A DNA stretch of 56,097 bases from a virus: positions 1 through 56,097 of the IMG/VR virus record IMGVR_UViG_3300042691_028488. The stretch is one strand, 5' to 3'. Positions within the stretch are counted from its first letter, which is position 1; each line of letters starts with the position of its first letter. Of this stretch, positions 7,267 to 52,293 are shown one piece after another. The position numbers and the translations under genes are program-made. Below the pieces are notes generated by a model that saw only the letters and a list, made by a program, of their open reading frames with translations, made no database searches and had not been told where the DNA came from.

Positions 7267-7862
7267 ATAGTTTTAATTTTATTGATGAATTTGAAAATTT
7301 AATTGCTAATTTTTTCAATGCACCATATGCAGTTGCGACTGATTGTTGTACACATGCAATTGAGTTATGTTTAAGGTATGAAAAATATAACAACATACTA
7401 GTTCCCGAACATACCTATATTTCGGTTCCATTTACTATGGAGAAACTTGGATTAAAATGGAATTGGAAAAAAAATTATCAATGGAGAGATTATTATTATC
7501 TTGGTAATACTAATATAATAGATGCTGCTTTTTTATGGGAACAAAATTCTTATATTCCTAAAACTTATATGTGTTTAAGTTTTCAATTTAGAAAACATCT
7601 TAGTTTAGGTAGAGGTGGTATGATATTACTTGATGATAAAGATTCTTATCAAACTCTTAAAAAAATGGTATATGATGGTAGAACATCGGATAAACCATGG
7701 GGAGAACAAAATATAAACATGATAGGGTATCATTACTATATGACCCCAGAAACTGCTTCAATGGGAATTGAGAAATTTAAAGAAGTTGCTTTTAAAGAAC
7801 CGAAAAGGTATGGATATTTGAATTACCCATATTTGCCTGATATGGAGGTTTTTAAAAAATGA
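7263..7862 (+). CDS. Shortened DegT/DnrJ-like aminotransferase-family protein
   Basis: This 199-residue protein is about half the normal DegT length. Family features remain: a YAVATDCCTHAIELCL substrate/PLP region, VPEHTYISVPFTME, DAAFLW where the PLP Asp is expected, and a possible Schiff-base Lys in SFQFRKHLSLGRGGM. The C-terminal domain is missing. It may still bind PLP, or it may be a pathway accessory. It overlaps the sulfotransferase gene upstream and the first GT25-like gene downstream by ATGA. Confidence 0.72.
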   Translation: MNSFNFIDEFENLIANFFNAPYAVATDCCTHAIELCLRYEKYNNILVPEHTYISVPFTMEKLGLKWNWKKNYQWRDYYYLGNTNIIDAAFLWEQNSYIPKTYMCLSFQFRKHLSLGRGGMILLDDKDSYQTLKKMVYDGRTSDKPWGEQNINMIGYHYYMTPETASMGIEKFKEVAFKEPKRYGYLNYPYLPDMEVFKK

Positions 7863-8734
7863 ATTTAGATAATAAATTAAAAAATTTACCTCCAATATTC
7901 TATCAGAATTTAGATCATAGAACTGATAGAAAAGAAAATATGGAAAATCAATTTAAGAAATGGGGTATAAGTGATTATACCAGAGTTTCTGCTTCTAGAT
8001 TTTCTATTGATAAAATTGATCAATGGAAAGATAAGTTGGACTTGATGTTATTAACTCCATCAGACGCATCAATTGTTATGAACCAATTTACAACCATAAT
8101 TGATTGGTATAACTCTGGAATTTCGGAATATTGTATAATAATGCAAGATGATTTATCTTTAGATTTAATAGAATATTGGATGTTTGATTGGGATTACTTA
8201 ATGAAGCATCTCCCATATAATTGGGATTGTATTTTGTTATATTTTTGCCATTACGCTTACATACCAATGCACCTTAAAAAAAGACTTCATAATTGTTGTT
8301 CTGGTGCATGTTATATGATTAATAGATGGTATGCAGAAAAATTAATAAAAATGCATTTGAGACCTGATGGTGGATTTAAGTTAGATAATAGTTTAAGAGA
8401 TTGTAGAGTTGAAAAACCTTGTTATAGTAGTGATGATTTTTTGATCTATCAAATTGGTGTTAATTATACTCTTCCATTATTCTCTTTAAATCAGCATTTA
8501 TCTCAAAATCCAGATAATAAACCAAGTTTATTTCCTGGACAAGAATATAATCAGACAATACAAATGCATCATAATAAAATGAATGATATCTTTTCTAGTT
8601 ATTATATTAGAAAATGGTGGATGAATGAAAGTCAGAATTTTACTGCAGAAGACTTTTTTACTTATAATAAATCCACAGATTACAAAATGACTATAACTAT
8701 TCCATCATTTAATAATACTTATGTAACATTATGA
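7859..8734 (+). CDS. GT25-like glycosyltransferase, tandem copy 1
   Basis: The first of six consecutive paralogs, 291 residues. The family N-terminus (FYQNLDHRTDRKENMENQF) resembles LPS glycosyltransferases of family 25. The acidic motif reads MQDDLSLDLIEYW, with Gln replacing the Glu of MEDD in most copies. The shared PYNWDCI block follows, and a C-terminal WWMNESQNFTAEDFFTY block recurs in all copies. It probably adds a sugar to a surface or virion glycan. The start overlaps the upstream stop. Confidence 0.78.
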   Translation: MNLDNKLKNLPPIFYQNLDHRTDRKENMENQFKKWGISDYTRVSASRFSIDKIDQWKDKLDLMLLTPSDASIVMNQFTTIIDWYNSGISEYCIIMQDDLSLDLIEYWMFDWDYLMKHLPYNWDCILLYFCHYAYIPMHLKKRLHNCCSGACYMINRWYAEKLIKMHLRPDGGFKLDNSLRDCRVEKPCYSSDDFLIYQIGVNYTLPLFSLNQHLSQNPDNKPSLFPGQEYNQTIQMHHNKMNDIFSSYYIRKWWMNESQNFTAEDFFTYNKSTDYKMTITIPSFNNTYVTL

Positions 8735-9582
8735 ATATACAAAGTACAAATAAATTAACGGGAATACCTAAGATATTATATTTTACTAAAAATAAGAATA
8801 GAACTGATATTGAGTTGGATTTTAATTCTTGGGAAATAACCAATTATGAAAAAATTTTGATACCAAATCCAAACACTAAAACTTGGAAAAAATATATTTT
8901 AGATAATAATTTATCATTATCTGATGATGAGTTGGTTAAGAATTTTTCATATATTAAAACTATTATTGACTGGTATGATTCTTGTGATGATGAATATTGT
9001 ATTTTGATGGAAGACAATACGAATATAAATCTAGCAAATTACTGGACCTTTGATTGGAAATTTTTAATGAATGCACTTCCTTATAATTGGGATTGTATTC
9101 AATTAGGTGTTACTGGGGAAGATACTATCGATATGTATCTCAAACCAAAATCTAGCATTATTTTAAAAACTTTTTGTTTTATGATAACGAGACAATTTGC
9201 AAAAAAAGTTAAAGATTTGCACTATAAAGAAGGCAAATATCATTTATATGTTAATTGTTTTGATTTAAATATCCCAGAATATTTTTATGGGGATATAAAT
9301 TATTTTTTATTTGAACTTGGCATTACATACACATTTCCAGTATTTAATTTATTTGGAGAAACTATTTCTGAAACCGAAAAAATATCTTCAACTCATGTTG
9401 AGCAATGGTGGCAGAATGAATCTAAAAAATTTACAGTTTTTGATAAATTTCATTATTACAAAAATAACGATTCTAAGATGAAAATATATTTGGATAATAA
9501 TGATAATTATAGAAATGCGCTATCTAAAAAAATGATGGGAATAAAGTTAATATCAGATGGTAAATTGATACTATGGATTTAA
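8731..9582 (+). CDS. GT25-like glycosyltransferase, tandem copy 2 (diverged acidic motif)
   Basis: This 283-residue paralog of the flanking genes keeps the PYNWDCIQLG core and the C-terminal WWQNESKKFTVFDKFHYY block. Its metal-site motif reads MEDNTNINL instead of MEDDYDL, and the N-terminal NLDxRxDR signature is eroded to FTKNKNRTDIE. It may have altered donor specificity or no activity. It overlaps copy 1 by ATGA and copy 3 by 10 bases. Confidence 0.68.
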   Translation: MNIQSTNKLTGIPKILYFTKNKNRTDIELDFNSWEITNYEKILIPNPNTKTWKKYILDNNLSLSDDELVKNFSYIKTIIDWYDSCDDEYCILMEDNTNINLANYWTFDWKFLMNALPYNWDCIQLGVTGEDTIDMYLKPKSSIILKTFCFMITRQFAKKVKDLHYKEGKYHLYVNCFDLNIPEYFYGDINYFLFELGITYTFPVFNLFGETISETEKISSTHVEQWWQNESKKFTVFDKFHYYKNNDSKMKIYLDNNDNYRNALSKKMMGIKLISDGKLILWI

Positions 9583-10433
9583 AACATAAACTTAAAAATT
9601 TTCCTCACGTATATTATTTTAATCTTGATAATAGGACTGATAGGCGTAAATATATGGAGGACCAATTTGAAAGATGGAATATAACTGATTATACAAGAGT
9701 ATCGGGAACAAAATACTTGGCATCTAAAAAAGATGAATGGAAACATTTAATAGTTGATTATGAAAATTTTAACTTACTAGTTCCAATAGCAGCAAATGCA
9801 ATAAGTCATCTTAGTTTTCTTAAAGATTGGTATAAAAATACCGATGATGAATACTTGATTTTGATGGAGGATGATTATGATCTTAGTTTAATTGAATATT
9901 GGCATTTCGATTGGGACTACTTGATGAATAAAATACCTTATGATTGGGATTGTATTCAGATGGGATATGAAAATCCATTGGGTCTTAGATTTTATTTGCA
10001 CCCTATTGATGCTGCTCATGATTTTGGACCTTGTATGTTGAATAGAAATTATGTTGAAAAATTATTACGTCTTCATTGTGTAGATGATAGATATAAACTA
10101 ATAAACACTGTTTGTAGTGCTGCTTGGAATAGGCAAGAAGATGTTGCTGGATCTGGGACAGTTGATTACTTTATGTGTCATCCTGGTAAAACTTATACAA
10201 TACCATTGATAACAACAAATCCAGACTTTGGCAGTTTTGAAAATCATAGTAGAGTTCAACATAACATTTATCGGCAAGGTGGGGATGTTATGGCAAGAAA
10301 TACTTATTATTACTGGTGGAAAAACGAAAGAGATAAATTTACTTTAGATGAATTTTTTACTTACGGAAAACCTAATGATTATTTGATGGTATATAATCCA
10401 ACAAAGTATAGAAATTATGACTATAAAAAATAA
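9573..10433 (+). CDS. GT25-like glycosyltransferase, tandem copy 3
   Basis: This 286-residue copy has intact family features: YYFNLDNRTDRRKYMEDQF, LMEDDYDLSLIEYWHFDW near residue 100, and PYDWDCIQMG. An 86-bp stretch (9822-9907) is identical base for base to 10663-10748 in copy 4, which points to recent duplication or gene conversion. It overlaps copy 4 by 17 bases. A role as a surface-glycan transferase is inferred from family resemblance. Confidence 0.78.
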   Translation: MDLKHKLKNFPHVYYFNLDNRTDRRKYMEDQFERWNITDYTRVSGTKYLASKKDEWKHLIVDYENFNLLVPIAANAISHLSFLKDWYKNTDDEYLILMEDDYDLSLIEYWHFDWDYLMNKIPYDWDCIQMGYENPLGLRFYLHPIDAAHDFGPCMLNRNYVEKLLRLHCVDDRYKLINTVCSAAWNRQEDVAGSGTVDYFMCHPGKTYTIPLITTNPDFGSFENHSRVQHNIYRQGGDVMARNTYYYWWKNERDKFTLDEFFTYGKPNDYLMVYNPTKYRNYDYKK

Positions 10434-11289
10434 GTTAAAAAATTTACCTCATATTTACTATGTAAATCTTGATGAAAGGGATGACCGTAAAAAATATATG
10501 GAAACTCAATTTGATAAGTGGGGTATAAAAAAGTATACAAGAATATCTGCATCAAAATTTTTAGTTTCAGAAAAAGAAACCTGGAAAGATCTTATACTTG
10601 GTGATACTACCAATTCATATTCTTATGCAGTTGCTCATGCACTTACTCATTTCGACTTTTTAAAAGATTGGTATAAAAATACCGATGATGAATACTTGAT
10701 TTTGATGGAGGATGATTATGATCTTAGTTTAATTGAATATTGGCATTTTGATTGGAATTACTTGATGTCCAGATTGCCTTATGATTGGGATTGTATAATG
10801 TTAGGTTTTGAATCACCAGATATTATTCCATTTTACTTACATCCTTTAAATTATGAATATTCTTTGGGTCCTTGTATGTTTAATCGAGGATATGTTGAGA
10901 AGTTATTAAGACTTCATTGTGTTGGTGATAAGTATAGATTAGATAATAATATTGGTAATGCTGTATGGAAAAATCATAAAGGATATTCAACAGTCTCTGG
11001 AACTGGGGATTATTTTTTATGTCAAAATGGAAAAACTTACGCATTACCTTTGATACCACTTAATCCATGTTTTGGTAGTTTTGAAGATAATGTTTGGTTA
11101 CCAAGACCACATATGCAAATTTGTCTTGATACTTATTATGACTGGTGGAAATATGATAGGGATAAATTTTCACTAGATGAATTTTTTACTTATGGAAAAC
11201 CCAGTGATGAAAAAATGAAAAGGGACGTTTCATACTGTGACCCTAAATACTTTTTTAATAAAATGCTCAAAATAAGAGAAAATATGTAA
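10417..11289 (+). CDS. GT25-like glycosyltransferase, tandem copy 4
   Basis: This 290-residue copy is closest to copy 3, sharing an exact 86-bp segment over the acidic motif (10663-10748). The N-terminal YYVNLDERDDRKKYMETQF, MEDDYDLSLIEYW and PYDWDCIMLG blocks are intact. The central segments between the shared blocks differ most from its neighbours, as expected if acceptor or donor binding has diversified. Copy 5 follows after 10 bases without overlap. Confidence 0.78.
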   Translation: MTIKNKLKNLPHIYYVNLDERDDRKKYMETQFDKWGIKKYTRISASKFLVSEKETWKDLILGDTTNSYSYAVAHALTHFDFLKDWYKNTDDEYLILMEDDYDLSLIEYWHFDWNYLMSRLPYDWDCIMLGFESPDIIPFYLHPLNYEYSLGPCMFNRGYVEKLLRLHCVGDKYRLDNNIGNAVWKNHKGYSTVSGTGDYFLCQNGKTYALPLIPLNPCFGSFEDNVWLPRPHMQICLDTYYDWWKYDRDKFSLDEFFTYGKPSDEKMKRDVSYCDPKYFFNKMLKIRENM

Positions 11290-11299
11290 TTAATGTGCT

Positions 11300-12118
11300 A
11301 TGGAACTTCATAATAAATTAGTCGGAATACCAAAAATATATTACTTAAATTATGATCAACATGTAAGTAGAAAGGAATATATTGAAGATCAATTTTCTAA
11401 GATGGGGATATTGAGTTATCAAAGAATATCCACTTCAAAATATCTTGAAAGTAATGTTGATCAGTGGGGTAAAAATGTCTATGATTTAAATTCATATAAG
11501 TTAAATTATGGAGTTGCTGGATATGCTATTTCAGTACTTGAATTTATTAAAACTTGGTTGAATGAAACTGATGAGCAAACATTTATTTTAATAAAAGATA
11601 TAACAGATTTTGAAATAGTTGATAAGTGGAGATATGATTGGAATACTATAATAAAAAACATTCCATATGATTGGGATTGCATTCAATTAGGATTTGAAAA
11701 TGTATCAATAATTCCTTTTTATCTACACCCCATACTTCCAAGTCATACTTTTGGACCATCGTTAATAAATCGTAATTATGCCAAAAAGATAGTTAAGTTA
11801 CACTGTCATGGTGATGGGTATAAACTATCAAATTATATTGCTAATATGAATATGGGTGGTCATTCTGGAACCATTGATTACTTTATTGGACACAATGGTA
11901 AAACATATTCAATGCCACTTTTACCATTAACCGCAAAATTTTTAGATAAAAATAGTAGGAAATTTAAGTTAATATCTGCATGTAGGAATGCTTATTATGA
12001 TTGGTGGGAAAATATGGGTGATAAAATAACTGAAGATGAATTTTTTACGTATGGTAAACCTAATGATATTTCTATGATTAGGAAAGTTAAAAATTATAGT
12101 TGGTGGTCTTTTGAGTGA
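11300..12118 (+). CDS. GT25-like glycosyltransferase, tandem copy 5 (acidic motif lost)
   Basis: This 272-residue paralog reads ILIKDITDFEIVDKW where active copies have ILMEDDYDLxLI. The Glu-Asp-Asp cluster is therefore gone, although PYDWDCIQLGFEN and the C-terminal EDEFFTYGKPND blocks are kept. It is likely catalytically altered or a non-enzymatic relative, yet the frame is fully open. It starts at ATG 11300 and its stop overlaps copy 6 (TGATG). Confidence 0.68.
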   Translation: MELHNKLVGIPKIYYLNYDQHVSRKEYIEDQFSKMGILSYQRISTSKYLESNVDQWGKNVYDLNSYKLNYGVAGYAISVLEFIKTWLNETDEQTFILIKDITDFEIVDKWRYDWNTIIKNIPYDWDCIQLGFENVSIIPFYLHPILPSHTFGPSLINRNYAKKIVKLHCHGDGYKLSNYIANMNMGGHSGTIDYFIGHNGKTYSMPLLPLTAKFLDKNSRKFKLISACRNAYYDWWENMGDKITEDEFFTYGKPNDISMIRKVKNYSWWSFE

Positions 12119-12921
12119 TGGATTTAAAAAATAAATTAAATAATATACCTCATGTCTATTATCTCAATTTAGATAATAGAGAAGATAGAAAAAGGTATAT
12201 GGAAAGACAGTTTTTATATTGGGGTATAAAAAACTATACTAGAGTTTCTACTTCTAATTTTTTAGCATCTAAATCAAAAGAATGGAGCCATTTGATTTAT
12301 GGTGAGGTTAAAAATATACCAGCATATGTTGTTGGTACTGCAATAAGTCACTTTGAGGTGTTAAAGAATTGGTTGAATACAACTAATGATGAATATGTGA
12401 TATTGATGGAAGATGATTATGATTTAAATTTGATTAGATACTGGCATTTTGATTGGGACTACTTGATGTCAAGATTGCCTTATGATTGGGATTGTATTCA
12501 ACTTGGATTTGAAACCAAGACTTATATTCCATTTTTTCTTCATCCAAAAACTAGAGGAAGTTTTTTTGGTCCAGTGTTAATCAAACGAGATTATGCACAA
12601 AAAATATTAGACTTACATACAGTAGGAGAAAAATATTGTTTAGATAGAGTTGTTGGTGATCTTACTTTCAATGGTTGTTCTATTACGGTTGATTATTTTA
12701 TTGGGCATACTGGAAGAACCTATTGTATTCCTTTAATAACAACTAATACCGAGTTGGGTAGTACTGAGTATGATGTTAAAATAGATAGAACTCATCATGA
12801 ATTGTGTAAAAAATACTATTACTGGTGGTGGATAAACAAAAGAAATGATTTTACTTTGGACGAATTTTTTACCTACGGTAAAGTGAATGATGATAAGATG
12901 ACCATATTAGTTGATTGTTGA
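12118..12921 (+). CDS. GT25-like glycosyltransferase, tandem copy 6
   Basis: The last member of the tandem array, 267 residues, with intact YYLNLDNREDRKRYMERQF, LMEDDYDLNLIRYW and PYDWDCIQLGFE motifs. ATG 12118 overlaps the preceding TGA, which suggests translational coupling. A GTG three bases upstream is a less likely start. The -35 box of a host-type promoter for the next gene overlaps its stop codon. Confidence 0.78.
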   Translation: MDLKNKLNNIPHVYYLNLDNREDRKRYMERQFLYWGIKNYTRVSTSNFLASKSKEWSHLIYGEVKNIPAYVVGTAISHFEVLKNWLNTTNDEYVILMEDDYDLNLIRYWHFDWDYLMSRLPYDWDCIQLGFETKTYIPFFLHPKTRGSFFGPVLIKRDYAQKILDLHTVGEKYCLDRVVGDLTFNGCSITVDYFIGHTGRTYCIPLITTNTELGSTEYDVKIDRTHHELCKKYYYWWWINKRNDFTLDEFFTYGKVNDDKMTILVDC

Positions 12922-31514: not shown

Positions 31515-32762
31515 ATGGCAAATAGAATACCTAAATGTATTGCGCCATGGGTTTATCTGGATATTTTACCTGATGGGGTTGTTGTTCCTTGTTGTAGTAA
31601 TTCAACTGAACTTGGAGATTTGAAGAAACAATCTCTTGAGGATATTTGGAATGGGGACCCCATGAAGAAGATCAGGTTAGAAATGCTTAATGATATATTA
31701 CCTGAAAGTTGTGCATTATGCATTCAACAAGATGAAACAACCACATTGAAATATTTTTATAATCAGAAATTTTCTAGTTCTATACCTGAAGTTTATGATA
31801 TGACTAATCCTGATGGATCTGTTAAAGAAGTCAAAATTAAAGGATTTGATTTTAGGATAAGTAATAAGTGCAATTTTAAGTGTAGAACATGTTGGTCTAA
31901 ACTTAGTAGTTCTATTAATTTTGAAACTAGAACAAATAATCTAGGTGAATATTATGAAGAACCAATATTGAATATTGGTAATTATTTTGATTTTAAAAAA
32001 ATGTATCAAGATAATATTGACAATTTAGAGTTAATTGAATTTTCTGGTGGTGAAGTATTGTTGATGGATGAGCATTATGAAATGCTTCAATATTTTATTG
32101 ATAATAAAAAGCAGTCGCAAATAGAATTGAGATATAATACAAATTTCTCTACACTTGAGTATAAGAACTATAAAGTATTTGATATGTGGAGAAAATGGGA
32201 TATTAGAAAACTAGAAGTTAATGTTAGTATTGACGAAATAGGGGTTAGATCGGAGTATGTTAGGTATGGAACTGTATGGAATAATATTTCTAGTAATATA
32301 AAGAAACTTTTAAATGAATTTAAAACTTCTTATCATTATCTAGAAAATGGTAGATTTATTTTTTCTGCTAATATAGTTGTGAGTATTTTTAACGTTTATA
32401 GAATACCTGAAATTATAACCAATTTAAATCAAATTGGATTAATAACTGATGCTAATGAATTTAGCAATTTTACTCTATCTTTAGAGGGAGGTATGGATGG
32501 CGGTATATATGATCTTGAATTATATCCTATAAGTGAAAGGAAAAAAATAAAAGAAAAATTACTTCAATTTTCTTCAACATACCCAGTAGATATCTCACAA
32601 AAATTGGAACAAGTTATTGAAAAATTAGATAATCCAGAAGAGACTAATAAAGATAAGATAAATAAGTTTTTGGAAAAAACAAATAAGTTAGATACGATAA
32701 GAAATCAAAACTTACTTAAAGTTATTCCAGAATTGCAGTGTTTAGTTGATTACGTAAGTTAA
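31515..32762 (+). CDS. Radical SAM protein with N-terminal twitch/SPASM-like domain (1)
   Basis: This 415-residue protein carries an N-terminal Cys-rich auxiliary cluster domain (CIAPWVYLDILPDG, VVPCCSN, SLEDIWNGD, CALC at about 6-75) before the radical-SAM core. The core has CNFKCRTC near residue 119 and an EFSGGEVLLM (GGE-like) strand near 177. The reversed order (auxiliary domain first) is the twitch-domain radical-SAM type seen in marine phages. The substrate is unknown. A paralog lies at 34648. Confidence 0.86.
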   Translation: MANRIPKCIAPWVYLDILPDGVVVPCCSNSTELGDLKKQSLEDIWNGDPMKKIRLEMLNDILPESCALCIQQDETTTLKYFYNQKFSSSIPEVYDMTNPDGSVKEVKIKGFDFRISNKCNFKCRTCWSKLSSSINFETRTNNLGEYYEEPILNIGNYFDFKKMYQDNIDNLELIEFSGGEVLLMDEHYEMLQYFIDNKKQSQIELRYNTNFSTLEYKNYKVFDMWRKWDIRKLEVNVSIDEIGVRSEYVRYGTVWNNISSNIKKLLNEFKTSYHYLENGRFIFSANIVVSIFNVYRIPEIITNLNQIGLITDANEFSNFTLSLEGGMDGGIYDLELYPISERKKIKEKLLQFSSTYPVDISQKLEQVIEKLDNPEETNKDKINKFLEKTNKLDTIRNQNLLKVIPELQCLVDYVS

Positions 32763-34647: not shown

Positions 34648-35844
34648 ATGAATGATGGGAACAAATATTTTTGTATAATGCCTTGGGTGGGATTACATGT
34701 AAGGCAAGATGGTCATGTTCATCCATGTTGTGTTTCTAATTATGAATATGATTTTGGTAATATAAAGTATAATTCTTTGGAACAAATTTGGAATAATTAT
34801 GCTGTTAGAAAATTTAGAGTTGATTTATTGAATGGAAAGGAATTAGACATATGTAAAGATTGTAATTTTAATGAAAAACTTGGTAATGATAGTTTAAGAA
34901 AAAAAATTAATAAAAAATTTAGTCACCATTATGATGTTGTTAAATCAACTAAAAAAAATGGTACAGTTGATAAATTCAATTTTGTTTATTGGGATTTTAG
35001 GTTTAGTAATATTTGTAATTTTAAATGTAGAATGTGCTGCCCAGAATTCAGTAGTTCTTGGGGATATGAAATAAAAAAAGTTTTAAAGAATAAAGATGCT
35101 AATCCAATACAACAAATAGATGTTTGGGAACAATTAGAACCTTTATTTGATACTGTTGAAGAGATATATTTTGTTGGTGGTGAACCTTTAATTATGGAAG
35201 ATCACTATAAGATTATCTATAAATTAATTGAACTTAAAAGATTTGATGTTAGATTAATTTATAATACCAATTTTAGTATTATAAATTACAGAGGCAATGA
35301 TATTGTAGAACTTTGGAAAAAGTTTGATAGTGTTGGATTGACTATCAGTTTAGATGGGTATGGTAAATGTGGTGAATTAATTAGAAATGGATTGAATTGG
35401 GATACGTTAGTTGACAATATAAATCATCTAAGAAATGTTTATGATAAAAAATATACAATAGATTGTGTTTATCAAGCAATTAATGCTTTTCATGTTTTTG
35501 ATATGCATAAAAAATTGTATGAAAATAAATTAATACAAACCGTTGATAGTTTTAATGTCTATTTTTTAACTGGACCTGAATACTTATCCATTGATATTTT
35601 TCCATTGGAAGTGAAAAATAAAATAATAGAAAAAATAGATGATCATATTAATAATTTTTTAATTCCAAATAATTCGGAAATATCTAGAGAACAATTTGAA
35701 GTTATGAAAAATATTTTAAAACTAAACAATGATAAGACAAACTTGATACCTAAATTTAAAAAATTTATTAATGCAATGGATACCATAAGAAATGAAAATA
35801 CTCTGGATTTATTTCCAGAACTATCTGAAGTTTTAAATGCTTGA
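34648..35844 (+). CDS. Radical SAM protein with N-terminal twitch/SPASM-like domain (2)
   Basis: This 398-residue paralog of the 31515 protein has an auxiliary Fe-S domain at the N-terminus (CIMPWVGLHVRQDG, VHPCCVS, SLEQIWNN, CKDC) and a radical-SAM core with CNFKCRMC near residue 127 and FVGGEPLIM near 176. The substrate is unknown. It ends just before the tRNA-Pro promoter and begins after the microprotein operon. Confidence 0.86.
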   Translation: MNDGNKYFCIMPWVGLHVRQDGHVHPCCVSNYEYDFGNIKYNSLEQIWNNYAVRKFRVDLLNGKELDICKDCNFNEKLGNDSLRKKINKKFSHHYDVVKSTKKNGTVDKFNFVYWDFRFSNICNFKCRMCCPEFSSSWGYEIKKVLKNKDANPIQQIDVWEQLEPLFDTVEEIYFVGGEPLIMEDHYKIIYKLIELKRFDVRLIYNTNFSIINYRGNDIVELWKKFDSVGLTISLDGYGKCGELIRNGLNWDTLVDNINHLRNVYDKKYTIDCVYQAINAFHVFDMHKKLYENKLIQTVDSFNVYFLTGPEYLSIDIFPLEVKNKIIEKIDDHINNFLIPNNSEISREQFEVMKNILKLNNDKTNLIPKFKKFINAMDTIRNENTLDLFPELSEVLNA

Positions 35845-37398: not shown

Positions 37399-37566
37399 AT
37401 TAGGTGGTGGAGTCAATTGACCCTCATTTGGTTTCTTGCTTTCTCCATAAAAAAGCAAGTGGTGCGGATGGGGAATTCTTTCTCCGCCTGGTTTCCAATT
37501 TCCAGTTAAAGAATTGGTGGCGAGCCTGAGTTATTGAGAGTGGGAAACTATTCCCGCTCTTTTTTT
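37399..37566 (+). ncRNA. Tandem structured RNA with 55-nt period ending in a terminator
   Basis: No ORF. TGGTGGAGT, TGGTGCGGA and TGGTGGCGA start at 37405, 37460 and 37515, exactly 55 nt apart. Each of the first two units holds a hairpin, then TGGTTTC (37429 and 37489), then a second hairpin: CTTGCTTT/AAAGCAAG in unit 1 and CCAATT/AATTGG in unit 2. Stems differ in sequence but keep pairing. A terminator closes the third unit. It could be the 3' part of the 36886 transcript, a separate RNA, or a tandem sensor. Confidence 0.5.
37537..37566 (+). terminator. Intrinsic terminator
   Basis: A 10-bp stem AGAGTGGGAA/TTCCCGCTCT (one G-U pair), loop ACTA, then T-run. TATAACTA (37566-37573), a late-promoter-like variant, begins on its last T. 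Confidence 0.9.
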
Positions 37567-37593
37567 ATAACTATATTATCTCTTGATAGTAAT

Positions 37594-38424
37594 ATGATAG
37601 ATATTCCAGTATTAGATTTTCATGTAATACATAAGTGTAATTTTACTTGTGATAGTTGTTCTGATTTTACTAACCATGACTTACCAGGAAAAGTTGAATT
37701 AAATGTTGCCAAAGAATGGTTTTCTTATTGGAATAAAAGAATAAAACCAACAACTTTTAATATTCTTGGTGGTGAACCATTAATGCGTAGAGATATAATC
37801 GATTTTTTATATCTAACAAAAGAAATGTGGGATGGATGTGAAATAGGTTTAATTACTAATGGCATTCTATTAGACAAACATCCAGGTTTACCGAAAGTTT
37901 TATCTGAACTTGATATTAATTTATGGATATCTCTTCATAGTGATGATCCAACTTACAAAAAAGTTATCCGAAAAAAACTAAAAATATTAGAGAATTGGAC
38001 TAGAGAATATAAATTTTCTTGGGGTTGTAATTCTGATCACAAACATTGGTCGTTAATATACAAAGGGTATGGTAATACTATAGAACCTTTTGAGGATAAT
38101 GATCAAGAAGGGAGTTGGAATAATTGTTTTATGGAAGGTAAATGTTTTCAATTGCACGAAGGAAAAATATGGAAATGTCCACCTATTGCATATTTACCAC
38201 TGATGGCAAAAAAATATAATATATCGGAAAAATGGGATCCTTATTTAAAATATGAACCATTAACTAAAGATGCAACCGATGTCGAAGTAGAAAACTTTTT
38301 TAAAAGAACTTCTGAAAGTGTTTGTAAAATGTGTCCAGCAAATAAAACACAGGGTTTTAAAATAATTAATAGTCCTATGATGTCTACAAAAAGAAAAGAA
38401 AAATTGCATAATAGTCAACTATAA
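37594..38424 (+). CDS. Radical SAM protein (3)
   Basis: This 276-residue protein starts the radical-SAM core at once: CNFTCDSC near residue 14, FNILGGEPLM near 59, and LWISLH at about 112. Cys residues near the C-terminus (CFQLH, CPP, CKMC) may hold an auxiliary cluster. It differs from the two twitch-type proteins, which carry the Cys-rich domain first. ATG 37594 is chosen because the terminator and a late-like box lie just upstream. The substrate is unknown. Confidence 0.83.
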   Translation: MIDIPVLDFHVIHKCNFTCDSCSDFTNHDLPGKVELNVAKEWFSYWNKRIKPTTFNILGGEPLMRRDIIDFLYLTKEMWDGCEIGLITNGILLDKHPGLPKVLSELDINLWISLHSDDPTYKKVIRKKLKILENWTREYKFSWGCNSDHKHWSLIYKGYGNTIEPFEDNDQEGSWNNCFMEGKCFQLHEGKIWKCPPIAYLPLMAKKYNISEKWDPYLKYEPLTKDATDVEVENFFKRTSESVCKMCPANKTQGFKIINSPMMSTKRKEKLHNSQL

Positions 38425-45152: not shown

Positions 45153-46099
45153 AAATTACATTAATTGGTCCTGGCATTATGCCCATTCCCCCAACTGGAT
45201 GGGGTGCAGTTGAAATACTTATTTGGGATACTAAACTTGCTCTTGAAGAACTTGGGCACGAAGTTCAGATAATTAATACCAAAGATTATCGACAAATCAT
45301 TAATGGTATTAATGCTTTTGTTCCAGATTTTGTCCACGTTCATTACGACGAATTTATTGATATTTGTCCTTTCATTCAATACCCTTCTGCTATTACAAGT
45401 CATTTTGGGTATCTTGAGCGCCCTCAAATGTTTGGTGGGTATGCAAATGTTGCAAATGAATTTTCAAAGATTAAACCAAATGTATTTTGTTTATCTGAAG
45501 GGATATCTAAAGTCTATCAGGTAATGTTTAGCATTCCCGAAGATAAACTTTTTATTACTCCTAACGGTGTAAACACTTCAAAATTTAATTTTAAAGAAAC
45601 GCCAGAGTATCCTGATAGATCAATTTATCTGGCAAAGATTGATTATAGAAAGCGTCAGCATTTATTCCAATCTATTGATAGTCTTTGGTTCGCAGGAAAT
45701 CTTGCCGATAGCAGATTTAACACGAATAAAAATTATCTAGGTGAATGGTCTAAGGAAACTCTTTACAATGAATTAACTGATTATGGAAATCTTGTATTGT
45801 TATCTGATGGTGAGGCGCATCCCCTTGTTTGTATGGAAGCATTGTCTGCTGGATTGGGTGTAGTTGTGTGTGAGTGGGGTAAGGCAAATCTTGATCAATC
45901 TAAAGAATTTATTACCGTAATTCCTGAGGATAAAATTAATGATTTAGAATTTGTTGAATCTGAAATTATTAAAAATAGAGAATATTCTATTTCTCATAGG
46001 AAAGAAATTTTAGAGTATTCTAAGCAATTTGATTGGAAAGAAATTTTACAAACACATTATATTCCTAGTATAATGAAAGTAATAGAACAACATGGATAA
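45149..46099 (+). CDS. GT4-like (GT-B) glycosyltransferase
   Basis: This 316-residue protein has a GT-B layout: an N-terminal acceptor domain (LIGPGIMPIPPTGWGAVE), FITPNGVNTSKF at the hinge, IYLAKIDYRKRQ, and a C-terminal donor site LSDGEAHPLVCMEALSAGLGVVV, which matches the EX7E motif of GT4. It probably extends the same glycan as its operon neighbours. It overlaps the GDPD-like and GT25-like genes. Confidence 0.86.
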   Translation: MKITLIGPGIMPIPPTGWGAVEILIWDTKLALEELGHEVQIINTKDYRQIINGINAFVPDFVHVHYDEFIDICPFIQYPSAITSHFGYLERPQMFGGYANVANEFSKIKPNVFCLSEGISKVYQVMFSIPEDKLFITPNGVNTSKFNFKETPEYPDRSIYLAKIDYRKRQHLFQSIDSLWFAGNLADSRFNTNKNYLGEWSKETLYNELTDYGNLVLLSDGEAHPLVCMEALSAGLGVVVCEWGKANLDQSKEFITVIPEDKINDLEFVESEIIKNREYSISHRKEILEYSKQFDWKEILQTHYIPSIMKVIEQHG

Positions 46100-46886
46100 A
46101 AATAAATCAATGGATAAACTGAAAAATTTCGGTCCCGTTTATTATTTAAATCTCGACGGGCAACCAGATAGAAAAGAATATATGGAATCTCAATTTCAAT
46201 ATTGGGGTATAGAAAATTATGAGCGTGTATCTGCTTATGATGGTCGTGATGATGATTTAAGTGATATTATTAAAGGTAGATATCCAGAAAGTATGACTTC
46301 TGGTGAAATTGGTTGTATTACTTCTCATTTAAAAGCAATTAAACATTGGATGGAAACATCTGATAGTCCATATGCAATTATCATGGAAGATGATTGTAAA
46401 TTGGATTTAGTTAGATTTTGGAATTTTAATTGGGATGATTTTGTTGCAAGACTTCCTTATGATTGGGATGTTGTTCAACTTGCAATTATTTGTACTGGAG
46501 ATATTCATGTAAAACTTCATCGAAGATTTGTGAATAATTTTTCTACTGCATGTTATATGATTACCAGACACCATGCAGAAAAATTACTTCGTCATCATGT
46601 TAGGGGTGAAAAATATAAACTTGATAATGGAATTAAACCTCGCCCAGTAGCGGATGATTTAATCTATAATTCAGGTAATACATTTTCTATTCCTTTACTT
46701 CTGTATAAAATTGAATTGGGATCTTCTATTCATCCAGATCATGTGGATGCTTTCCATAGATCTAGTCATGACGGAATTTTAAATTTCTGGATGCAAGCTG
46801 GTGCTCAATTGGATATTAATGATTTAATGGATTATGATCCATATCTTGGTAGGATTACAAATCCTTCAGGTGGGCAACCAGGATAA
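46092..46886 (+). CDS. GT25-like glycosyltransferase, distant seventh copy
   Basis: This 264-residue relative of the tandem array at 7859-12921 has YYLNLDGQPDRKEYMESQF, an intact MEDDCKLDLVRFW motif near residue 98, and LPYDWDVVQLA. Its DNA is less AT-rich than the array. The N-terminal YDGRDDDLSDIIKGRY segment fits classic LPS family 25 enzymes better than the array copies do, so it may represent the ancestral form. Last gene of the operon. Confidence 0.82.
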   Translation: MDKNKSMDKLKNFGPVYYLNLDGQPDRKEYMESQFQYWGIENYERVSAYDGRDDDLSDIIKGRYPESMTSGEIGCITSHLKAIKHWMETSDSPYAIIMEDDCKLDLVRFWNFNWDDFVARLPYDWDVVQLAIICTGDIHVKLHRRFVNNFSTACYMITRHHAEKLLRHHVRGEKYKLDNGIKPRPVADDLIYNSGNTFSIPLLLYKIELGSSIHPDHVDAFHRSSHDGILNFWMQAGAQLDINDLMDYDPYLGRITNPSGGQPG

Positions 46887-51115: not shown

Positions 51116-51814
51116 ATGCTCATCGATCTTCATAACTTTTTTAAATTTTACGACGAAAAAAATCCAAAGCATGTTGCTGCGGTAGAACAATTTGAAAAAG
51201 ACTTGCAGTTAAAGGCACAAGAATTAGTGCAAGATGATGCAAATTGGGTGAGAATTTTTAGAACTAAGGAAGACAAACCTCAAGCAACTATTTTACCTGT
51301 TCCTTTCTATCCACAAACAGATAATTATAGAGATGCAAATAGAACTTGTAACTCTTCTGCTTGTGCAATGTGTCTTGAGTATTTCAAACCTGGCACACTA
51401 AAAGGACCTAAGGGCGACGACGCCTATGTACAAAAAGTTTTTTCAATCGGGGACACAACTGATCACTTGGTTCAAACCAAGGTTCTTGCGTCATACGGTA
51501 TTAAATCCAGTTTTTCCTACAGCCTTTCTTTTGTTGATCTTGATAGAGAGCTTGCCGCTGGTAGACCTGTTGTTATTGGTATTCTTCATAGGGGCACTCT
51601 ATCTGCTCCCACGGGAGGACACATGGTAGTTGTTATTGGTAAGACACCTGCTGGTGATTACGTTGTTAATGATCCATATGGAAGTCTTAATGATGGTTAT
51701 ACTGGATCTGTAAATAATGGTAAGGGTGCTGTATATAAGCGTAGTGAATTAGCACGTAGATGGTGTCCAGCAGGTAATGATGGTTGGGGTAGAATTTTTG
51801 ATGTAAAAAAGTAG
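51116..51814 (+). CDS. C39-like cysteine peptidase, zero-frame product
   Basis: This 232-residue protein has a papain-like C39 fold. The nucleophile is probably Cys78 in NRTCNSSACAMCLEYF. His169 lies in GGHMVVVIG and an Asn/Asp in VVNDPYG near 185. It likely cuts murein peptides or acts as a lysis amidase. It ends KK-stop on A_AAA_AAG followed by TAG and a 13-bp stem, a classic -1 frameshift layout. ATG 51095 is an alternative start but would precede the late start site. Confidence 0.82.
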   Translation: MLIDLHNFFKFYDEKNPKHVAAVEQFEKDLQLKAQELVQDDANWVRIFRTKEDKPQATILPVPFYPQTDNYRDANRTCNSSACAMCLEYFKPGTLKGPKGDDAYVQKVFSIGDTTDHLVQTKVLASYGIKSSFSYSLSFVDLDRELAAGRPVVIGILHRGTLSAPTGGHMVVVIGKTPAGDYVVNDPYGSLNDGYTGSVNNGKGAVYKRSELARRWCPAGNDGWGRIFDVKK

Positions 51815-52293
51815 AATTAACATCACAACAAAAAGTCCCTCAGTGTGGTGTTAATTTAGTTAAGGAATTTGAGGGATGTCATTTACATGCTTATCCCGAT
51901 CCATTAACTGGAGGACTTCCGATCACTATTGGTTGGGGAAGTACTAAGGATTTTAATGGACAACCATTCAAACTTGGAAGAAAAATAACTCAGGACTATG
52001 CTGATAAATTATTAATATTTGATCTTGAACAGAGGTTCTTTCCTATCCTACAAAAAATACCTTATTGGAGTGAAATGAATGACAACCAACGCGGAGCACT
52101 TTTATCCTTTGCTTATAATCTTGGCGCTGGGTTTTACAATTCAAGCAATTTCAATACTATCTCTCGTAATTTACGTGAGAAAAATTGGAAAGCAATTCCT
52201 GAAACACTAAAGTTGTATCGTAATCCTGGATCTAATGTTGAAGCGGGATTGTTTAGAAGACGTGTTGCTGAAGGTAAACTTTGGAGTTCTTAA
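51116..52293 (+). CDS. Candidate frameshift fusion: C39-like peptidase + T4-type lysozyme
   Basis: A slip from 51811 back one base joins the peptidase to a 160-codon frame (51811-52293), giving about 392 residues. The second domain is a GH24 lysozyme. Relative to the junction, E21 (EFEG), D30 (YPD) and T39 (ITIGWG) align with Glu11, Asp20 and Thr26 of T4 lysozyme, and Glu-to-Asp spacing matches exactly. No ATG, GTG or TTG precedes these residues in frame; the first in-frame ATG (52075) is too late. The slip site is A_AAA_AAG at 51805-51811, then TAG and a 13-bp stem (51815-51827 with 51844-51856). A one-base assembly error in the A-run would mimic this. Confidence 0.7.
51805..51856 (+). promoter_or_regulatory. 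Candidate -1 programmed frameshift signal
   Basis: Slippery heptamer A_AAA_AAG (51805-51811) in the peptidase frame, stop TAG at 51812, then a 13-bp stem with one G-U pair (51815-51827 with 51844-51856) and a 16-nt loop. The spacer is 3 nt, rising to 5 or 6 if the terminal A-T pairs open. Confidence 0.72.

Follow-up and report, generated by a model that had tools for sequence, protein, structure and literature searches.

A conserved −1 frameshift signal between a C39-like peptidase and a T4-type lysozyme in T4-like cyanophages

In T4-like cyanophages, a C39-like cysteine peptidase and a T4-type lysozyme are encoded across a conserved junction of slippery heptamer, stop codon, and downstream stem. 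Programmed −1 ribosomal frameshifting very likely accounts for this gene pair, from which the peptidase alone and a peptidase–lysozyme fusion would be made; direct evidence from ribosome profiling, mass spectrometry, or reporters is lacking. Confidence is high that the frameshift signal is real and conserved and moderate as to its biological purpose.

Organization of the junction

The window—meaning the whole stretch of DNA analyzed, 56,097 nucleotides of IMG/VR record IMGVR_UViG_3300042691_028488—is a fragment of a T4-like cyanophage with psbA, a transaldolase-like gene, a peroxiredoxin, and phage tRNAs aboard. All features of the junction lie on its plus strand. The C39-like cysteine peptidase, which carries an N-terminal module termed HNFFKFYD, occupies positions 51116–51814 and has a zero-frame product of 232 amino acids. 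Its last codons read GAT GTA AAA AAG TAG (51800–51814) and contain the slippery heptamer A_AAA_AAG in the peptidase frame (51805–51811), directly abutted by the zero-frame stop TAG (51812–51814). The GH24 (T4-type) lysozyme follows in the −1 frame (51805–52293), and peptidase and lysozyme together would form a fusion of 392 amino acids. This frame is open from 51802 to 52293, and its first ATG, GTG, or TTG is found at 52075, past the active-site motif. The putative stimulatory stem 1 (51814–51857) is formed by pairing of 51814–51827 with 51844–51857, leaving a loop at 51828–51843. Among the 128 ORFs of the window with at least 60 amino acids, the peptidase is the only one that ends on a heptamer followed by 100 or more open codons in the −1 frame. 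The first-pass annotation, made from the sequence alone, had described the heptamer, the TAG, the stem, and a lysozyme without ATG, GTG, or TTG before its active site; this description held in every particular that could be checked.

Elsewhere in the window, six adjacent ORFs alike in length and sequence (7859–12921) appear to be a tandem expansion of a glycosyltransferase-like family, of which a further copy lies at 46092–46886 (both judged by eye only). Three radical SAM proteins are encoded at 31515–32762, 34648–35844, and 37534–38424, two of them with a SPASM domain.

The two enzymes

The upstream frame matches the Pfam family Peptidase_C39_2 (PF13529; E-value 6.5e-13, 49.9 bits, cut-off 24). 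Residues C81, H172, and D189, numbered along the 235-residue translation P0001 that begins three codons before the ATG, are invariant in 51–54 homologues. Hence, the window product satisfies both criteria for a C39-like peptidase, namely the sequence match and the Cys-His-Asp residues. The fold of an AF2 model (pLDDT 88) matches C39/papain-like peptidases and, more weakly, the pseudomurein endoisopeptidase PeiR, a wall-cleaving enzyme; the best matches among viral models are cyanophage lysozymes and endolysins containing a C39-like domain. A sequence search of the PDB gave no match to the peptidase.

The HNFFKFYD module has no Pfam name and is possibly a wall-binding or export module. In DSL-LC02 and DSL-LC03 (loci L006 and L007), the two enzymes are separate genes, and an N-terminal 'IDLHNFFKFYDEKNP' module of its own is also present on the lysozyme. 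Frameshifting would let a single copy serve both the peptidase and the fused lysozyme. Together, this suggests that the module is useful to each enzyme. In an Oscillatoriales MAG (L276, 2989–3858), the HNFFKFYD module occurs twice in tandem ahead of the C39 domain. In filamentous cyanobacteria (L280, 2194–3531; L279; L278), the C39 domain is located behind a second domain that resembles a GH19-type hydrolase by eye; Pfam names the C39-like part alone.

The −1 frame matches Phage_lysozyme (PF00959; E-value 6.6e-23, 81.8 bits, cut-off 22.3). Across the 84 junctions introduced below, the catalytic E and D are matched in 81 and the T in all 84. The criteria for a GH24 phage lysozyme—a match above the curated cut-off and the catalytic E, D, and T—are thus satisfied. 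The positions E21, D30, and T39 given in the first-pass annotation are correct when counting starts at the first residue after KK. In the databases, the lysozyme of S-PM2 and S-CAM7 is a truncated "lysin" that starts from an internal ATG and misses the catalytic Glu (L001, 2457–2675, and L005, 2259–2531, respectively). These entries need re-annotation as trans-frame fusions, by which the annotation of the reference phages would be corrected. Peptidoglycan cleavage by both products at lysis is inferred from homology, and the lysis function is untested; the basis for assigning the pair to lysis is homology, the PHROG category "lysis," and the fusion to a lysozyme. Two further lysozyme-related observations were made. 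A protein with a phage tail lysozyme domain (PF18013; 29451–30119) is a second wall hydrolase of the window, and in S-CRM01 (L284, 1821–3130) lysozyme homology lies in two pieces near ribonucleotide reductase, possibly with a frame change inside the domain.

Conservation of heptamer and stop

Relatives were gathered by tblastn and blastn against GenBank phages and by four IMG/VR scans (265 loci, some of them one-contig repeats). The loci were classified by script, and dereplication of the junctions left 84 with the lysozyme frame at −1 relative to the peptidase. The same enzyme pair is found in S-PM2, S-SRM01, S-CAM7, ACG-2014f, and other GenBank phages. The 84 junctions are related by descent, and their counts do not represent independent events; the junction states are spread across the peptidase tree with many changes.

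An X_XXY_YYZ heptamer is present in 78 of the 84 junctions, being A_AAA_AAG in 75, T_TTT_TTT in two, and A_AAA_AAA in one. In all six junctions without a heptamer, an ATG or GTG overlaps the peptidase stop. Such an overlapping start occurs in 14 of the 84, eight with and six without a heptamer. The stop follows the heptamer at a distance of 0 nt (62 of 78), 3 nt (14 of 78), or 6 nt (2 of 78), and the −1 frame opens just 3 nt 5′ of the heptamer in 65 of the 78. Peptidases without a lysozyme directly downstream lack the heptamer altogether (0 of 23, dereplicated).

Five junctions (L160, L002, L147, L253, and L073) combine the heptamer with an overlapping ATG at the stop but lack a stem; they are possibly intermediates between frameshifting and coupled reinitiation. 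An upstream SD-like stimulator (GGGGTAGA) was considered as well. It consists of conserved WGR codons that are equally common in loci without a downstream lysozyme, and there is no evidence for such a role.

The downstream stem

The stem of the window comprises 13 bp and begins at a distance of 3 nt from the heptamer; an outer G·U pair extends it to 14 bp. It closes a 16-nt loop with a folding energy of −13.8 kcal/mol. Taken alone, it only modestly exceeds shuffled sequences (z −1.8 over 86 nt), and the case therefore rests on comparative data. Folding of the same 86 nt prefers an alternative hairpin, whose pairing is the one read below as pseudoknot stem 2. A search of Rfam at the junction returned nothing above threshold.

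Over the 55 nt after the heptamer, the 70 junctions without an overlapping start have a mean fold of −15.2 kcal/mol versus −8.1 kcal/mol elsewhere in the same genes. The corresponding means are −7.8 (control −8.6) for the eight junctions with heptamer and overlapping start and −6.5 (control −8.5) for the six heptamer-less ones. The first-pass annotation had named comparison with related cyanophages as a check on its reading; besides the heptamer counts given above, a dedicated stem search herein found a significant stem in 68 of the 70 junctions without an overlapping start versus none of the 14 with one (Fisher 3.8e-14).

At this position, different junctions have stems unrelated in sequence, namely AATCAACACCACA/TGTGGTGTTGATT, GCCAACTAAC/GTTAGTTGGC, CTCTACTCC/GGAGTAGAG, CCCCACTAT/ATAGTGGGG, and the stem of S-CAM7. 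In an arm-swap test, stems folded with their own arms reached −16.0 kcal/mol and with swapped arms −7.5 kcal/mol, the own mean being reached in 0 of 2000 permutations. Within the stem family of the window (21 relatives), 98.6% of cells are paired with compensatory changes at four pairs, and sliding the stem by 1–3 nt lowers the pairing to 32–52%. When the lysozyme frame is recoded synonymously, the fold is on average less stable (−10.9 kcal/mol versus −17.3 kcal/mol in the natural sequences), with 48 of 70 junctions at p ≤ 0.05. A chance stem is ruled out by the class contrast, the arm swap, and the synonymous recoding.

The spacer between heptamer and stem measures 2–8 nt across relatives and 2–3 nt in the window family. 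The usual spacing between heptamer and stimulator is 5–8 nt (PMC4066793). Since the helix of the window family begins closer than this, its outer pairs must open.

These data also bear on an alternative, in which the lysozyme is made separately by termination–reinitiation at a nonstandard start in the linker or from an unseen internal start. In its favor are the ATG or GTG codons overlapping the stop in 14 of 84 relatives and the presence of some GTG, TTG, or ATG in the linker of 34 of the 70 other junctions. However, the remaining 36 of these 70 lack any such codon, and an SD-like sequence precedes an in-linker start in only 2 of 70. In addition, separate translation accounts neither for the restriction of the stem to junctions that lack an overlapping start nor for the finding that only junctions with such a start can do without the heptamer. 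It is regarded as very unlikely. Relatives with an ATG before the lysozyme had been put forward in the first-pass annotation as a refutation of frameshifting; they exist but are stem-less, which makes them support instead.

A candidate pseudoknot in the window family

For the stem family of the window, an H-type pseudoknot is a possible candidate. The loop ATCCCTCAA (GTCCCTCAG in the window, 51835–51843) is complementary to the stretch TTGAGGGAT located 11 nt past the stem (51869–51877), and the resulting stem 2 would span 51835–51877. It is paired in 97.9% of cells in the 21 relatives; the changes are one-sided, without a compensatory pair. The Glu codon of the catalytic region is GAG in 19 of 19 members of the window stem family versus 14 of 57 elsewhere, a contrast inflated by shared ancestry. 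No complementarity between loop and downstream sequence was seen in the other stem families. A pseudoknot common to all stem families was thus rejected, and the candidate is confined to the window family.

Natural variants of the junction

S-PM2 has the same heptamer, a TAA stop, and a different stem, and its junction does not differ between the original genome and a deletion mutant sequenced later; the predicted trans-frame junction peptide is ...LFDAKKVTSSTSR.... The junction of S-CAM7 reads GTT TTT TTT CCA CAG TAG, with the heptamer T_TTT_TTT and a bulged 13-bp stem of unrelated sequence, and is identical in three isolates. Some relatives have the two domains fused in frame. In the peptidase tree, for which only a midpoint root is available, S-CAM7 is placed inside a clade of such fusions (the ACG-2014f group, support 99/95). 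Nested in this manner, its T-type shift may have arisen separately.

In S-SRM01 and its relatives, A_AAA_AAG is retained, yet an ATG overlaps the stop and the stem is missing. In loci L061/L192 and L074/L171, a single additional A (GTA AAA AAA GTA) places the two domains in one frame; a true variant and a homopolymer error cannot be distinguished here. The shift is not needed in these loci, and a start codon can replace it in the S-SRM01 group, which matches the prediction of the mechanism. In S-CREM1 (L003, 1494–2675), the same two enzymes are fused in frame in reversed order, lysozyme first, and in L077 the lysozyme likewise lies upstream.

A sequencing or assembly error, with the lysozyme truly in frame, or a decayed, dead gene would be another explanation. 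Speaking for it, some relatives have an additional A or are fused in frame. Against it, the same junction type recurs in 70 dereplicated loci from many metagenomes, S-PM2 was sequenced twice, three S-CAM7 isolates agree, and the catalytic residues are conserved. Error or decay is thus all but excluded. One extra A had been the other refutation foreseen by the first-pass annotation; most lineages, including the twice-sequenced S-PM2, do not have it.

Transcriptional slippage would likewise yield the fusion: an extra base inserted by RNA polymerase within the A6 or T8 run would bring the two frames together in some of the mRNAs. Homopolymer runs are indeed present, and the genomic variants with one extra A imply that a +1 A product would be functional. 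However, almost all loci have a run of only A6, with no lengthening; A6 is below the run length usually needed for transcriptional slippage. Furthermore, the final G of the heptamer, which favors ribosomal re-pairing, is kept in 75 of 78, and a stem at a fixed short distance that is lost with a start codon fits ribosomal shifting. Slippage is therefore considered very unlikely.

Proposed mechanism and implications

Programmed −1 frameshifting is favored because no other explanation found accommodates the slippery heptamer together with the stop directly behind it, a stem that co-varies and disappears when an overlapping start is present, and the recurrence of the design in other sequences. The sequence-based criteria for −1 frameshifting are also satisfied: an X_XXY_YYZ heptamer, a downstream stem at short spacing, and a conserved start-less −1 extension. 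In this model, one gene would be read in two ways. The majority of ribosomes would probably terminate at TAG and release the peptidase alone. A fraction would pause at the downstream stem (possibly a pseudoknot in the window family) with lysine tRNAs on AAA AAG; the tRNAs would re-pair one base back, on AAA AAA, and the stop would then be passed out of frame, giving the fusion. The shift in infected cells and the importance of the product ratio are inferred. The frameshift interpretation of the first-pass annotation is hence supported by comparative data. Its further claim of two lysis products from one late mRNA remains an inference as regards expression timing, shift efficiency, and lysis function.

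Host decoding was surveyed in one Synechococcus-like genome by an Rfam tRNA search and ARAGORN. This 2.27-Mb cyanobacterial genome, whose psbA is 94% identical to that of the window, has a single tRNA-Lys gene, with anticodon UUU, among the tRNAs examined—the condition that makes A_AAA_AAG highly shift-prone in Escherichia coli (PMC5009743). Because some filamentous cyanobacteria possess tRNA-Lys CUU, the argument is limited to the genome checked. None of the nine tRNAs encoded in the window is a Lys tRNA.

If the mechanism holds true, a presumed lysis gene is subject to conserved frameshifting in a widespread group of viruses that infect cyanobacteria of oceans and lakes. The system is a natural experiment, in which one gene pair moves between frameshift, overlapping start, and in-frame fusion, and the stem is there in precisely those cases that require the shift. 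It would offer a route to study −1 frameshifting in cyanobacteria and raises the question of whether lysis depends on the proportion of the two wall enzymes. In a bolder reading, toward which the balance tips only slightly, T4-like cyanophages of a large group use a programmed −1 frameshift to set how much peptidase is made relative to fusion. Herein, T_TTT_TTT of S-CAM7 perhaps re-evolved from an in-frame fusion, so that dual products would be under selection, e.g., for timing or tuning of lysis.

Comparison with known systems

The closest likeness in signal is the −1 shift of E. coli dnaX, which combines A_AAA_AAG with a downstream stem-loop and one tRNA-Lys(UUU) for both codons (PMC5009743; PMC4066793). 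The shifted product of dnaX is the shorter one. In the cyanophages, by contrast, zero-frame translation ends immediately and a complete enzyme would be gained by shifting, and no upstream SD stimulator is specific to the frameshifting loci. In this respect, the system resembles the transposases of the IS3 family (IS911, IS3), in which an A_AAA_AAG-type shift extends the shorter zero-frame protein by a second domain and the stimulator is likewise a stem-loop or pseudoknot (PMC4066793; PMC5009743). Those are genes of mobile elements, whereas the cyanophage domains are two predicted cell-wall hydrolases.

The frameshifts of tail assembly chaperones are also conserved −1 shifts of phages that yield a short and a long form. 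However, they serve morphogenesis and not lysis, and the shift sites differ, those of tailed-phage tail assembly chaperones being of the G/GT type. PRFect lists lysins among genes known for frameshifting, citing a Lactococcus phage, whose lysin is similarly encoded across two overlapping genes. Phage and host are unrelated in that case, and the passages bearing on it do not mention a fusion of C39 peptidase and lysozyme. The in-frame C39 peptidase–lysozyme fusion of ACG-2014f (phrog_3617) has the same two domains in the same order and is homologous throughout, but it is encoded in a single frame without a heptamer, and the fusion alone is made.

No report of this frameshift was found in the open-access literature searched, subscription papers being outside the search, and the available text of the main recoding review (PMC5009743) does not mention endolysin, lysozyme, or cyanophage. 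Hence, the kind of mechanism is known and recoding in a lysin is not without precedent, whereas the gene pair, the breadth of its occurrence, and the evolutionary switching are apparently new.
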